From Candidatus Parcubacteria bacterium (GTDB lineage: Bacteria; Patescibacteriota; Patescibacteriia; Patescibacteriales; BM507): 42,466 bases of DNA. The DNA lies in NCBI GenBank assembly GCA_002869265.1, contig PKTH01000025.1, positions 1 to 42,466 on the forward strand, in the 5' to 3' direction. This document shows positions 29,982-42,421 of the stretch, piece by piece; positions within the stretch are counted from its first letter, which is position 1, and each line of letters begins with the position of its first letter. The translations under genes and the position numbers were made by a program. The notes under the pieces were generated by a model. That model did no database searches, was not told the DNA's origin, and saw nothing but the letters and a program-made list of their open reading frames with translations.

Positions 29982-32537
29982 TTAATAGAAATTGAAACTA
30001 TCCACCATGTAGTTAATAATGCTTCCGTAATCGTCATCTTTGCTGCAGGTTTCAAAGTCCATTTCAATATTAGTACTAGTATTTTCGTTGTACTTACAAA
30101 GCATTAATTCATAACATTCTTTTCCTTCATGTGTTCTGCTCCATGAATTTTTAGCAATCACTGTGCCATAACTATCAACGTCAACAAATTCTGCGCTTGT
30201 CCCATTATTTTCTAATATTTCGAATAAAGACTGATTCTCTGCTATTTTGAACTCTTTCCACTCTGCCTCACTAAAACTCTTAGTGGTCCAAGTTCCATTT
30301 GAATACTCTTTATAAACATTCTTATCCGTAACCGAAATCTCAACACCTTCTACCATGATATTCCCAATAGAGTTGTACTCTATAACTGGGCTCTCTACCT
30401 TAAAGTAAGCTCCTTCCCAATCTCCTGTATTGTTAACAAAATGGCCAGGATACTTTAATTCAAAGTTAAATTCATCATTTCTGTATGTAAGCCAATTTAT
30501 TAAGCCTGGATCTTTTGGATTATATATTGAGTTTGAATCTACACTAAATTCTGGTGTAAAACTTTCACAGCCCAATGTTGAACATTCATTTCTAGTTAGA
30601 AGGTCATTATATCCACACTCTAAACCAGGGGTAGCATCACAGGTAACAAATTCGGCCTCAGCCTTAGCCCAGGAATCATTTGCCGCCAATTTAGCATTTA
30701 CAATAAGTGGAGTCTTCTCATTGTATCCAAATATATTTGAATAACCACTATTAAATATTTTTACCTGAAACTCTCCATTATCATCAGGACGCAAACAAAG
30801 AACATCAGACAGAATGTAATCATTCACACCGTCAATTTTATCCCATTTTGTAGGATAAAAAGGACAGCTATAATAATTCTCATCATCGACCAGAGTTCCT
30901 CCGCTAGACTCATCATCTGAAACAGGAAGGGTTACCGGCTCACCTTTTGTAATTATTGGCAAATCACTACATCTATTATAAGCACATCCTTCGACGCTTA
31001 GATTATATGAACTGTGCTCAGCTCCGGTATTGTCCAGCTCCTTCATTTGCTCTGAGAGTGGTACATACAAAAACACTCTAAGCACTTCATCTGTTTTTGC
31101 CACACCATTTATAACCATATCGGTTCCTGCCTTAACGAGACTGTTCTCAACAGACAACTCTATATCTACTGGATCGTAGAATGGATAGTTAACCTTCTCA
31201 TAAACAAATCTATAGCTTTCATTGTATTCCTCGCTTTTTGCTATAAAAACTAAGTTTCCATTTTCTATTTCATATTTTGTCGGCGTTATCCATGGTCGTC
31301 TTTTAGGAAAGTAGCCCATAAGATAAAAGCCTTCAAAACTCTCTGCAAATACATGTTCCTCTGAAAAGCTAACCGCATCTCCATTAAATGTTATTGGTAA
31401 ATACCCCTTATGACAAACTATACCTAATTCATCTCCTTCTTTGTTGTGACTAATTCCAGAACAGATTCCATTAGATTTTATATTTTTTATTCTCAAATCT
31501 AACGGAACTCTTTCTAATTCTGCTTTTGTTATCTGTCCATTTCTTTCTAAATATATATCTTTATATCTCCATAGGCCAATTGCCTTTTCCTTGTTGTCTA
31601 CTGGCTCATCTTCTACAGCTTCAGCTTCAATACTAGGATCTTCAGTCGCTGGGTTATTGTCGGAGCTTGATCCCGTATTATCATCTACTTCTTCTGCCTC
31701 GGTGCTGCTTTCTGAATCTTCCTTGTTGCTATCTAATACTTCTTCTGGTTCATCATCGGTTTTATTGCTATCCACACTCTCTGATTCTTGTGAGGCTTCT
31801 TTGTTCTGCTCAGATTCTTGTTGGTTTTTCTGATCGATATTTTCTTCGACTTCCGATTCTTCAAGCAACTTATCATCACTAACCACTGCTTCCCTCTCTT
31901 CTAGCTCCTCACTACTTAACTCAACAATGCTGTCTTCGAAGTGTTTCATGTTCTCATTTGATATTCCTAGACCAAGATTTCTCATTACACTAAATGCATC
32001 GGCTGGCCTACCTAGAAAATATCTCCTACTGTCATCTGGGTTTATATACCAAGCTTCACCATTTCTCTCTACTTGCAAAAAAATCTTCCCTTTTTGTTTT
32101 TCAGCAAAGCCCTCATCCAGATTTTGTCTTCCATCCCCCCAAGGACTATAACCGTTCACTAGCTCTTCCATATCTCCATAACCATCATTGTCTGTGTCCC
32201 CAGAATTTTTATCCAAACCTAAAGCATCCTCAAGGCCGTCTGACAAACCATCGCTATCAGTATCAACATCCTCAGCACTTACGCCTACTTTTATTTTATA
32301 TAAATCTTTATTAGAAATGCCCACCCCCTGCTCTCTCATTATTCCAAATGCATCTTTCGGACGTCCCAAATAAAAAGCCTTATTATTAAGAGGGCTAAGA
32401 TAATATGCCTTTCCGGAGTCCTCTACTTTTAAAAGAATTTTACCCCTTAGTTTTGAATGCAGGCTACTTGCAGCCATAGATTCAAAAGCAAAAGCAAATA
32501 CAATAAGCAAGAAAAAATATAATATTGGTTTTTTCAT
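29982..32537 (-). CDS. Large secreted surface protein with YLGRP repeats and a calcium-type Asp-rich segment
   Basis: 851 residues. A signal peptide (1-23, ending SMAA) is followed by two copies of a 50-residue domain at about 32-81 and 150-199, with pattern GKI.L.VE..G.A.Y..P.....[FY][YF]LGRP.DAF..MR..G.GISN. Between them lies DTDSDGLSDGLEDALGLD and DTDNDGYGDMEEL, typical of thrombospondin-3-like calcium-binding repeats. A very acidic Ser/Glu/Asp linker occupies about 200-330, then a long C-terminal region with several Cys pairs (CGYNDLLTRNEC, CSTLGC) and beta-sandwich-like segments. The YLGRP repeat is a recurrent domain on secreted Patescibacteria proteins; its role is probably in binding or cell-wall attachment. 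It is monocistronic with its own promoter and terminator. It has no sortase signal and ends without a C-terminal membrane helix. Confidence 0.8.
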   Translation of the reverse strand: MKKPILYFFLLIVFAFAFESMAASSLHSKLRGKILLKVEDSGKAYYLSPLNNKAFYLGRPKDAFGIMREQGVGISNKDLYKIKVGVSAEDVDTDSDGLSDGLEDALGLDKNSGDTDNDGYGDMEELVNGYSPWGDGRQNLDEGFAEKQKGKIFLQVERNGEAWYINPDDSRRYFLGRPADAFSVMRNLGLGISNENMKHFEDSIVELSSEELEEREAVVSDDKLLEESEVEENIDQKNQQESEQNKEASQESESVDSNKTDDEPEEVLDSNKEDSESSTEAEEVDDNTGSSSDNNPATEDPSIEAEAVEDEPVDNKEKAIGLWRYKDIYLERNGQITKAELERVPLDLRIKNIKSNGICSGISHNKEGDELGIVCHKGYLPITFNGDAVSFSEEHVFAESFEGFYLMGYFPKRRPWITPTKYEIENGNLVFIAKSEEYNESYRFVYEKVNYPFYDPVDIELSVENSLVKAGTDMVINGVAKTDEVLRVFLYVPLSEQMKELDNTGAEHSSYNLSVEGCAYNRCSDLPIITKGEPVTLPVSDDESSGGTLVDDENYYSCPFYPTKWDKIDGVNDYILSDVLCLRPDDNGEFQVKIFNSGYSNIFGYNEKTPLIVNAKLAANDSWAKAEAEFVTCDATPGLECGYNDLLTRNECSTLGCESFTPEFSVDSNSIYNPKDPGLINWLTYRNDEFNFELKYPGHFVNNTGDWEGAYFKVESPVIEYNSIGNIMVEGVEISVTDKNVYKEYSNGTWTTKSFSEAEWKEFKIAENQSLFEILENNGTSAEFVDVDSYGTVIAKNSWSRTHEGKECYELMLCKYNENTSTNIEMDFETCSKDDDYGSIINYMVDSFNFY

Positions 32538-32606: not shown

Positions 32607-33899
32607 CTACTTTTTAGCTTTTGTGAATAGTTTTTTTGTTCGCAACTCCCGGTGGTATTTTATTGCAAAACGATGAGCCTCATCCCTCACTCTTTTAATA
32701 AGATGAAGCGCGGGAGAACTCAGTGAAAGCTCTAAAGGCTTTTTCTCTCCAGGGAAAAATATCTTATCAGGAGCCTGAGCTGACCTTAGCCCTGCCCCCT
32801 TAGAAATAGCGATGAGCGGAATATCTAATTTATTTTTCTTAAGCAACTTACTAACTACATTCAGCTGCCCCTTGCCTCCATCAAGAATCATCAAGTCAGG
32901 TAAGGGCCAAGCCTTCTCGCCATCAACACTTCTTGCCAGACGTCTTTCCATCACTTCTTTTATCATGCCAACATCCCCGTCTTTCTCACTTACTTTTATT
33001 TTAAATTTTCTGTATTAACTTTTGTTTTCCTCCCCTTCTTCAAAGACAACCATAGAACCAACAGCCTCCGCCCCAAAGATATTTGAGATATCATAGCCTT
33101 CTATTCTTCTGGGGGTTTTGGGAAGAGACATAACTTTAGCCAATTCTATTACATCTGTTGCGTACTTATCTACCAGCCCAAGAATATTTGTGTGCTCCAA
33201 AACATTTTGCATGTGTTTTATATAAAAATCAATCTTTTTAGCCTCCTCTATGTCACCTGCTTTTTCAAATTGTTTTTTTTCTTTGATAAGATTTTTTACA
33301 ATTCTCTCTTTTTTCCCTTCAAAAAATAAAGTAATAGGCTTGATAACTTTTTTTATGTACTCATTTCTATCAACCAGGCCACCACAAACCCCCACACATC
33401 TGTTTATTTGATAATAAAAACATGGCTTCTTTTGCAATTTCTTTTCATTGCAGTAAGGCCAAATCTTTCGAATAGCTTTTAGGGTTTCTTTGACAGCTTG
33501 AGCGCTTACGAAGGGACCAAAGTATTTCCCAGATTTCCCAATTGTCCTGGTAGTGAAAATCCCCGGTATTTCATCTTCAGTTGAAATACACACATACAAA
33601 AAACGTTTATCATCTCGAAGCATTACATTGAACTGTGGTTGATGTTTCTTTACTAGATTCGACTCAAGTAACAGGGCCTCTATTTCAGAATCTGTTTCTA
33701 TCCAGTCGATACCACAAATGTTTTTCATCATAGCATGTTTATCCGGAGAGTGATTGGTGCTTTTCTGCCAATAAGAAAGAACTCTACTCCGCAGATCGGC
33801 CGCTTTACCTATATATATTATCTTGCCGGCTTTATCCAAAAACTGATAAGAACCTGGCTTCTTTGGTATATTTTTGTTTTTTACGTCTTCAATATTCAT
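32607..33899 (-). pseudogene. uvrC: Excinuclease ABC subunit C gene interrupted by one in-frame TAA
   Basis: Read through, 430 codons. The GIY-YIG nuclease domain is at the N-terminus (KPGSYQFLDKAGKIIYIGKA...), with the Cys-rich segment typical of UvrC (KPCFYYQINRCVGVC) near residue 160 and a UVR-like helix (KEKKQFEKAGDIEEAKKIDF) near 215. The RNase H-like domain opens with GYDISNIFGAEAVGSMVVF. TAA at 33017-33015 (codon 295) comes right after GEENKS. The same frame continues YRKFKIKVSEKDGDVG, exactly where UvrC usually reads [E/D]YR.[FY].I, then the catalytic ILDGGKGQL and RVRDEAHRFAI. The tandem helix-hairpin-helix C-terminus of longer UvrC proteins is absent. Restart at ATG 32966 would give only a C-terminal fragment. 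Whether the stop is real or a sequence error is unknown. Confidence 0.85.
33015..33017 (-). other. uvrC: In-frame TAA stop inside uvrC (codon 295)
   Basis: The minus strand reads GAA AAC AAA AGT TAA TAC AGA AAA TTT. In homologues the residue before YRKFKIK is usually Glu or Asp, so GAA to TAA is the simplest change. Confidence 0.95.
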
Positions 33900-41038: not shown

Positions 41039-42139
41039 CTACATCCAAGCTTCTATTGCATGAACTTGGTCTTGTTTCTTTGTTCCTTTGGCTGCAACTT
41101 TTTTATCAAACTTTGTAAGCATCGCTTCTGTGGTATCTACCGAGACACAACCATCGGTCACAGAAACTCCGTACTCGAGCACTTTTTTTTCTTTTGTCGG
41201 AGGCTTTTGTTTACCAGCTTTAATGTTACTTTCAATCATGACGGAAGTAATAGAATCGTTCCCTTCTTCAATTTGGTCTCCAACATCATTGAGAACATTA
41301 ACTTGAATTTCAGGATTTCCTAAACAATTCTTATGACTACAGTCGACCATCAAAGAAAGAGGAAAGCCATTTTCTTTTAGCTGTTTCTCTACCTTGGCAA
41401 TTGAATCACGATCATTGTTCGGCTTATCCTTCCCGCCCCGCAAAACAACATGAAGATCAGGATTTCCAAACGTAGTAACCGTTGATAATTCTCCATAGGC
41501 ATTCAGGCCAAGAAATGAGTGTCCAGTCCTTGATGTCTTTATAGCGTCAATCGCCACCTGAAGGTCACCATCGGTCGCATTTTTAAACCCAACTGGAAAA
41601 GAAAGACCACTAGCTACTTCACGATGAGTTTGTGACTCTGTAGTCCGGGCGCCAATTGCCCCCCAAGAAATATAATCTGAATAAAATTGAGGAGTCATCG
41701 GATCAAGAACTTCACTAGCGATAGGAATACGTAGCTTTGTAATATCAGAGAAAAGCTTTCTGGCGATACCAAGTCCTTTACTGATGTTGCAGGAACCGTC
41801 CATATCAGGATCATTAACGAGTCCTTTCCAGCCAATGTTCGTTCTTGGTTTTTCAAAATACACTCGCATCACCAGGAAAAGGTGAGGCAGATTCTCCTGC
41901 ATCTTTACCAAACGCTTAGCGTAGTCCAAAGCCGCTACCGGATCATGAATTGAACAGGGACCTACTACCACCATAACTCGCTGATCTTCTTTGTAAATAA
42001 TTTTCCGTATTGTTTCCCTTGATTGATTGATAAATGCCGCATCGCTATCAGATAAAACGATCCTTTTTCTGAGACTCATGGGTGTTTCAATTGGTTCGAT
42101 GCTCTCGATGTGCTTATTGCTTGTTGTCATATTAACCAT
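41039..42139 (-). CDS. aroG: 3-deoxy-D-arabino-heptulosonate-7-phosphate (DAHP) synthase, AroF/G/H type
   Basis: 366 residues. It condenses phosphoenolpyruvate and erythrose-4-phosphate, the first step of aromatic amino-acid synthesis. Conserved type I-alpha sequence: VGPCSIHDPVAA with metal ligand Cys62, RVYFEKPRT (Arg/Lys substrate contacts at 97-100), WGAIGARTTESQTHREVASGL, PVGFKNATDGD and HVVLRGGKDKPN. The sequence resembles E. coli AroG over most of the length. The start at 42139 is chosen because AAAGGAGGA lies 7 bases upstream; an in-frame ATG 14 codons earlier would be inside the leader. The stop is TAG. No other aromatic-pathway gene is nearby. Given the paired leader, lateral acquisition as a unit is possible. 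The symbol is by type; aroF or aroH would be equally fitting. Confidence 0.93.
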   Translation of the reverse strand: MVNMTTSNKHIESIEPIETPMSLRKRIVLSDSDAAFINQSRETIRKIIYKEDQRVMVVVGPCSIHDPVAALDYAKRLVKMQENLPHLFLVMRVYFEKPRTNIGWKGLVNDPDMDGSCNISKGLGIARKLFSDITKLRIPIASEVLDPMTPQFYSDYISWGAIGARTTESQTHREVASGLSFPVGFKNATDGDLQVAIDAIKTSRTGHSFLGLNAYGELSTVTTFGNPDLHVVLRGGKDKPNNDRDSIAKVEKQLKENGFPLSLMVDCSHKNCLGNPEIQVNVLNDVGDQIEEGNDSITSVMIESNIKAGKQKPPTKEKKVLEYGVSVTDGCVSVDTTEAMLTKFDKKVAAKGTKKQDQVHAIEAWM

Positions 42140-42210
42140 AGTGTATCCTCCTTTGGGTGAATGGTCAAAAGTTAAAAGCACTATTGCTTATAGATAAATT
42201 ATAAAGAACG

Positions 42211-42245
42211 TAAAATAAAACCGGCCCTCTTTCGAAGACCGGTTT
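42211..42245 (-). terminator. Attenuator terminator hairpin upstream of DAHP synthase
   Basis: On the minus strand AAACCGG (42245-42239) pairs with CCGGTTT (42224-42218). Inside, TCTT (42238-42235) pairs with AAGA (42231-42228), with a 3-nt bulge and a 3-nt loop. A U-run TTTTATTTTA (42220-42211) follows. It is about 70 bp upstream of the aroG start, after the leader peptide stop. Confidence 0.85.
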
Positions 42246-42355
42246 CGTTTTCCCTAGTGAGTTTAAACTTACGTTAAGTAGTTAAAACACCACAACAAAC
42301 CGACCTTCTCTGGAAAGCCCAAAAAAAGCTAAAATAAAAGTTTGTTCGTTGTGTT
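42237..42355 (-). promoter_or_regulatory. Leader pairing segments 1, 2 and 3 of the aromatic attenuator
   Basis: Segment 1 (42340-42355, codons 5-10 of the leader peptide, just before the aromatic codons) pairs with segment 2 (42286-42300): AACAAAC with GTTTGTT, and AACAC with GTGTT. Segment 2 (42297-42305, GGTCGGTTT) can instead pair with segment 3 (42237-42245, AAACCGGTC, the 5' arm of the terminator), 9 bp including two wobbles. The two pairings share three bases and exclude each other. Segment 3 pairing with segment 4 gives the terminator. This is the classic 1:2 / 2:3 / 3:4 arrangement of trp- or phe-type attenuators. Confidence 0.8.
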
Positions 42356-42369
42356 GTCTTGTAAGTCAT
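42274..42369 (-). CDS. Aromatic leader peptide of the DAHP synthase attenuator
   Basis: A 31-residue ORF, ATG 42369 to TAA 42276-42274. Residues 10-19 read NFYFSFFWAF: five Phe, one Tyr and one Trp among nine codons (42339-42313). A further Tyr is at 3. The remainder (MTYKTTQRT and QRRSVCCGVLTT) has no hydrophobic export signal. The aromatic codons fall directly after segment 1 and before segment 2 of the RNA switch, where a stalled ribosome would free segment 2. It begins about 18 nt after the predicted transcription start, with only a weak AAGAG ribosome site. It is comparable in style with the pheA and trp leader peptides of enterobacteria, but the mix of Phe, Tyr and Trp suits a first-step enzyme sensing all three. 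Confidence 0.85.
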   Translation of the reverse strand: MTYKTTQRTNFYFSFFWAFQRRSVCCGVLTT

Positions 42370-42393
42370 AAGTTTTCTAAACTCTTGTGGATA

Positions 42394-42421
42394 ATTATAA
42401 CACAATAATTAAATAAATCAA
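42394..42421 (-). promoter_or_regulatory. Sigma70-type promoter of the DAHP synthase leader
   Basis: On the minus strand -35 TTGATT (42421-42416), 16-bp spacer and a perfect -10 TATAAT (42399-42394). The predicted start is near 42387. The region to the window edge holds only A/T-rich sequence. Confidence 0.8.

Follow-up and report, generated by a model that had tools for sequence, protein, structure and literature searches.

How is a gene for the first step of aromatic biosynthesis controlled when it stands alone, and to what signal could the leader ahead of it respond? The window, which is the whole contig C32 of genome G000 (42,466 bases), carries such a gene, aroG, and on the minus strand ahead of it, near the right end of the contig, a leader at 42421-42213. 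The initial annotation had taken this leader for a complete attenuator in which low charged tRNA-Phe, -Tyr or -Trp turns on DAHP synthase. Our analysis makes it very probable that the leader is a ribosome-mediated transcription attenuator that senses aromatic aminoacyl-tRNAs and that it belongs to an RNA family, hitherto undescribed, from a single order of Patescibacteria. The organism itself is consistent with Patescibacteria: uL30 is absent from 41 of 41 relatives and present in 13 of 14 controls, and the genome measures 1.27 Mb, those of the relatives 0.6-1.7 Mb.

The AroG of the window scores 441 bits against TIGR00034 (cutoff 173), the level at which a protein is assigned to the type I-alpha DAHP synthases (aroFGH) as an equivalog; it also matches PF00793, and its best PDB match is E. 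coli AroF (344 bits). Its downstream neighbours encode acyltransferases, a HAD hydrolase and histidine kinases, with no aro genes among them. Upstream, contig C27 overlaps the end of the window and continues with a complete leuA and then argS.

Every element that had been proposed for the leader is present (Table 1). The promoter has the consensus -10 (TATAAT, 42399-42394) with TG just upstream, and its position is conserved and its sequence, TTGATT...TGTTATAAT, identical in the same-genus genome G001. The 31-codon ORF with FYFSFFWAF at codons 11-19 was confirmed, and the terminator with its U-run, the Shine-Dalgarno site and aroG follow on the same strand. The 1:2 pairing, placed initially at 42340-42355 with 42286-42300, is present as 42360-42340 with 42300-42284. 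The 2:3 pairing also exists, and its extent (42297-42305 with 42237-42245) had to be revised: it is longer, 12 bp, from 42308-42297 with 42245-42234, and has an inner helix as well, at about 42296-42280 with 42266-42246. The stretch 42246-42234 doubles as the 5' arm of the terminator. Calculated energies for the window are -26.6 kcal/mol for 1:2, -20.3 kcal/mol for the terminator and -20.1 kcal/mol for the 2:3 antiterminator before segment 4 exists, so that the choice of fold depends on whether segment 2 is free.

Table 1. Leader elements and aroG in the window, with positions on the forward-strand numbering
Feature	Position	Strand	Details
Sigma-70-type promoter	42394..42421	-	-35 TTGATT (42421-42416), 16-nt spacer, extended -10 TGTTATAAT
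DnaA-box-like 9-mer TTATCCACA	42386..42394	-	Joined directly to the -10, where transcription should begin; putative function
Leader peptide ORF, 31 codons, MTYKTTQRTNFYFSFFWAFQRRSVCCGVLTT	42274..42369	-	ATG at 42369, UAA at 42276-42274
Regulatory codons FYFSFFWAF (codons 11-19)	42313..42339	-	Within the 1:2 hairpin loop
Segment 1 (codons 4-10)	42340..42360	-	Partner: segment 2
Segment 2, 5' side of antiterminator	42280..42308	-	Alternative partners: segment 1 or segment 3
Segment 3, 3' side of antiterminator	42234..42266	-	42245-42234 plus conserved AAACTCACTAGGGAAAAC
Intrinsic terminator 3:4 with U-run	42212..42246	-	Arms 42246-42234 and 42229-42217, 13 pairs
Shine-Dalgarno site of aroG, AAGGAGG	42147..42153	-	Ahead of the aroG ATG
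aroG, DAHP synthase type I-alpha, 366 aa	41039..42139	-	ATG at 42139; TIGR00034, PF00793

The leader is conserved far beyond this locus. In G001 the whole leader is retained (81% identity over 207 nt, with an in-frame 3-nt indel); its peptide is MNYKTIQQSNFYFSFWSFSQRSFRCGVLIT, and its promoter, stems and terminator are as in the window. A DNA search with 213 bases of the leader (E about 1e-5 or better) recovered homologues in at least 34 of the 109 genomes of the order, spread over about ten families, nearly all of them in genomes without aroG. We retrieved 36 such places, and 34 leaders entered the alignment. When 381 genomes sampled from the class were scanned with a covariance model built from this alignment, all strong matches fell within the order. 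Scanning the leader against Rfam 15 at gathering and permissive thresholds gave no family match, the best chance match being an unrelated sRNA (E 0.59); none of the known leader families (Trp, Phe, His, Leu leaders and others) reached its gathering score, and the T-box covariance model had no match in the leader. The leader represents an undescribed RNA family that very probably uses a known mechanism. One relative, G028, carries two leaders in tandem (L142:452-613 and L142:632-763), the second with the peptide MKKILQTTSFYFYLYFFR, and in G419, G432 and G433 (L133, L151 and L152) the ORF has been lost while the stems and terminator are kept.

Whether aromatic codons and both pairings hold up together in related genomes, a check that had been proposed for this locus, could be answered with the 34 aligned leaders, and compensatory changes were found in all three helices. 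The 1:2 helix (24 pairs) is paired in 91.5% of cells, with 10 of the 24 pairs changed on both sides; the 2:3 helix, assessed through per-sequence duplexes, is paired in 85.6% of cells with 12 of 27 pairs doubly changed, and the 3:4 helix in 86.0% with 11 of 18. For each helix, the observed number of doubly changed cells exceeded that in all 500 shuffles, and shifting the partner by 1-3 columns destroyed the pairing. A C-to-U change at column 162, in segment 3, is accompanied by G-to-A changes at both column 95 (segment 2) and column 188 (segment 4), which is what mutually exclusive pairing demands. Because relatedness among sequences can inflate shuffles, we added an arm-swap test on 29 sequences, no two of them more than 85% identical; none of the 5000 permutations paired as well as the own arms, whether for 1:2, 2:3 or 3:4.

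The peptides of the family share M-I-K-T-x-Q-K-T, followed by 5-9 aromatic residues and then R-x-V-F-C-G-V-L-T. Of 30 intact leaders, 28 keep the ATG in frame with the conserved core, although the distance between the two varies from 69 to 84 nt, and indels inside the aromatic block come in multiples of three. The block is found in nearly every intact homologue, with family totals of 160 Phe, 49 Tyr and 18 Trp; a short ORF with such a surplus of codons for the amino acids of the pathway is what one expects of an attenuator. The same logic in different sequences recurs ahead of aroG in G039 of the same order (MEKLIIKTSWSFYFTS...), in G128 of the same class (MHYAHANFFGFTYFT...) and in G555 and G710 of the same phylum (MTHSGIFFGAYWYPF... 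and MTSNMFFNGYWSFAF...), each right behind promoter-like sequence and ahead of a terminator or terminator-like hairpin. Judged from their sequences, these four are independent attenuator-like elements. The aroG copies that lie inside aro operons of other Patescibacteria (G293, G281, G070 and others) have no such leader. Outside the phylum, the proteobacterial DAHP synthase of a Pseudomonadales MAG (L033) is preceded by an aromatic leader and a terminator; this leader, MNLTLQKRSAEFTNETTTGFFWFGFYYFFEK, lies 388 nt ahead of the GPCS motif of the enzyme.

The genes behind the leader point to the pathway a second time. DAHP synthase I-alpha follows it in G000, G001 and G034 (with small ORFs between in G034), DAHP synthase I-beta in G032, and ADH synthase, the archaeal-type alternative first step, in G005 (TIGR01949, 376 bits). 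Prephenate dehydratase (PDT) follows it in G022, G011 and G027, and PDT with TyrA and an aminotransferase, mostly with chorismate mutase, in G017, G040, G045, G046, G048 and G433. Aromatic genes thus stand behind the leader in about 13 further genomes besides the window, and this tie to Phe and Tyr genes is evidence for the sensed signal that does not rest on the codons. Elsewhere, in roughly half of the genomes, no recognisable aromatic gene follows the leader, but small uncharacterised ORFs with Shine-Dalgarno sites. These ORFs are about 45-100 codons long (L123, L129, L131, L134, L135, L137, L145, L148 and others), and some are zinc-ribbon-like or share C-terminal motifs such as KRSKANFADVGR and TFVRKPWL. 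Several genomes have a leuA-like gene directly upstream of the leader (L141:131-1726; L204, L205, L206, L207, L208), and no leuB, leuC or leuD was seen near these genes.

We propose the following mechanism. Transcription would start from the promoter and a ribosome would translate the leader peptide. With charged tRNA-Phe, -Tyr and -Trp plentiful, it would reach the UAA just past segment 2, where it would cover segment 2 or, on release, let it re-pair with segment 1; segment 3 would then pair with segment 4, and the terminator would halt RNA polymerase ahead of aroG. With a charged aromatic tRNA scarce, a stall at codons 11-17 would open the 1:2 stem, the freed segment 2 would pair with segment 3, no terminator would form and aroG would be made. 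In this arrangement the regulatory codons come after segment 1 and occupy the 1:2 loop, so that a ribosome stalled as late as codon 19 would sit on part of segment 2, and late codons should work poorly. If codons 11-17 are effective and codon 19 is not, Trp should evoke a weaker response than Phe and Tyr, which agrees with the residue totals of the family. Promoter use, peptide translation, stalling and read-through are steps that we infer. The proposal that low charged tRNA turns on DAHP synthase by attenuation is supported by the conserved elements, the reading frame and the three-helix covariation, with the response to charged tRNA as its inferred part. Counting against it are the leaders, in roughly half of the genomes, that lack a recognisable aromatic gene, the ORF-less copies, the incomplete pathway described below and the late-codon geometry.

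Other readings of the same elements have to be weighed against attenuation. The C-terminus of the peptide is conserved beyond the aromatic codons, as it would be if a free amino acid or a drug, rather than scarce charged tRNA, caused the nascent peptide to arrest the ribosome, after the logic of TnaC or ErmCL. The conserved C-terminal codons are, however, those that form segment 2, and RNA pairing accounts for their conservation; the most variable aspect of the peptide is how many aromatic residues it has and in what sequence they come, a pattern more in keeping with codon counting than with a specific arrest motif, and we regard peptide arrest as decidedly improbable. A direct RNA sensor such as a T-box or riboswitch, or an RNA-binding protein, might instead toggle the helices with the ORF incidental, and the long conserved stretch AAACTCACTAGGGAAAAC in the antiterminator could be taken to point that way; yet no Rfam match was obtained, T-box and riboswitches included, the conserved stretches fall in the competing helices and not in an aptamer, and the frame of the ORF is kept, which leaves such a sensor barely credible.

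Control by DnaA is suggested by the promoter itself. The 9-mer TTATCCACA (42394-42386) is a perfect DnaA box that runs on from the -10. About 30 of the 36 homologous leaders (L122-L156) show this arrangement, and elsewhere in 312 kb of sequence of the order the 9-mer is rare; a role of DnaA in E. coli his attenuation has been proposed (PMC10989985). In several relatives (e.g., G046 and G013), the leader transcript would be nearly leaderless. DnaA acting at this site, at the promoter or in the RNA, as the main controller that couples the gene to replication and makes attenuation secondary, would nevertheless leave the aromatic codons, the frame and the three-helix covariation unexplained. We consider that very improbable, and DnaA could be an extra layer. 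Finally, the missing middle of the pathway and the ORF-less copies in G419, G432 and G433 would suit a relic, a degenerate or constitutive terminator-leader that no longer regulates in this lineage. Against this, G000 and G001 have diverged considerably, yet both keep the ORF, stop codon, stems and Shine-Dalgarno site, and the differences between them include an indel that preserves the frame and changes that compensate each other; a relic is highly improbable.

The attenuators of the proteobacterial trp, phe and his operons (trpL, pheL, hisL) are alike in having an ORF rich in regulatory codons, 1:2, 2:3 and 3:4 helices and a U-run terminator before a pathway gene. They differ from the present leader, in which the regulatory codons come after segment 1 and the stop codon after segment 2, Phe, Tyr and Trp codons are mixed, Rfam has no match, and the sequence is conserved across families ahead of non-homologous genes. 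T-box leaders also exert tRNA-dependent terminator/antiterminator control over amino-acid genes; here there is no T-box match, and sensing would need a translated ORF. An attenuator on an isolated first-step gene had been called unexpected, but it has two precedents. The aroF gene of C. glutamicum has a Phe-Tyr-Phe leader and an attenuator before its first-step DAHP synthase (PMC4046766), and Shewanella aroF is listed, as a prediction, as an attenuator sensing tRNA-Tyr (PMC2659441). The former is alike in its aromatic peptide and its attenuator before DAHP synthase, and the latter in the proposed tRNA-sensing attenuation of that enzyme, both leaders being likened by description; Shewanella belongs to a different phylum, and C. 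glutamicum is an actinobacterium that, unlike the order of the window, has chorismate synthase (where it served as a positive control). The initial annotation knew of no attenuator in Patescibacteria, and we likewise found no report of attenuators or leader peptides from this phylum among the open-licence papers searched.

The window aroG appears to have been laterally acquired. Among the 111 genomes of the order, this type of aroG is confined to 4, and in a phylogenetic tree the AroG proteins of G000 and G001 are sister to AroG of Desulfuromonadia (support 93/78 for the pair and 99/95 for the joint clade). G034 AroG falls elsewhere, near a verrucomicrobial sequence, and G032 has another enzyme type. 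Since these AroG groupings differ and G032 has a different enzyme, a resident leader was apparently joined to foreign genes repeatedly; from the tree and the distribution, an order-native leader appears to have met incoming genes more than once. Inheritance of the leader with aroG from the donor was rejected, as the nearest AroG is from Desulfuromonadia and, in the sample of the class, the leader has strong matches in its own order only.

What the regulated enzyme does for the cell is the harder part of the question. All 109 genomes of the order lack chorismate synthase, whereas 14 of 14 controls have it, which makes an incomplete genome an unlikely reason for the missing pathway. A joint AroB/AroC/AroE/AroQ/AroA query found nothing above MurA-level similarity in G000, G001, G034, G128, G555 and G710, and convincing AroB and AroA were found within the order in G039 only. 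Prephenate dehydratase is present in 19 of 109 genomes of the order. In G000, contig C37 (L159:6261-8943) carries an operon of PDT, a TyrA-chorismate mutase fusion and an aminotransferase, without the leader. By its predicted genes, G000 thus encodes the first and last steps and no recognisable middle between DAHP and chorismate. With that part missing, the regulated product alone cannot relieve the starvation sensed. Uptake of chorismate or prephenate, undetected enzymes, or a division of labour with a host may explain the gap. As a possible though rather unlikely scenario, a starved cell would make DAHP that it cannot convert, supply it to the shikimate pathway of its bacterial host so as to bypass feedback control there, and recover chorismate, prephenate or aromatic amino acids for its own last steps (chorismate mutase, PDT, TyrA and aminotransferase). 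On at least three occasions the leader seems to have been combined with first-step enzymes that are not orthologous (DAHP synthase I-alpha, I-beta and ADH synthase), and the leuA-like genes beside it are themselves first steps.

If the attenuation reading is true, the leader would be a dedicated amino-acid-sensing RNA family for a phylum in which we found no such regulator described. The family is defined well enough for an Rfam entry and could help to annotate uncharacterised downstream genes. It also suggests that a resident leader can adopt laterally acquired genes, and it poses a testable question: why would presumably host-dependent bacteria retain both ends of a pathway, under tight regulation, when they lack its middle? 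What surprises is that the leader reaches across an order, that it has repeatedly come to stand before different first-step enzymes and that the pathway between the two ends is missing.

Elsewhere in the window, an 851-aa ORF at 29982-32537 has no Pfam or NCBIfam match, and at 32610-33899 uvrC is split into two reading frames that correspond to its N-terminal and C-terminal parts.
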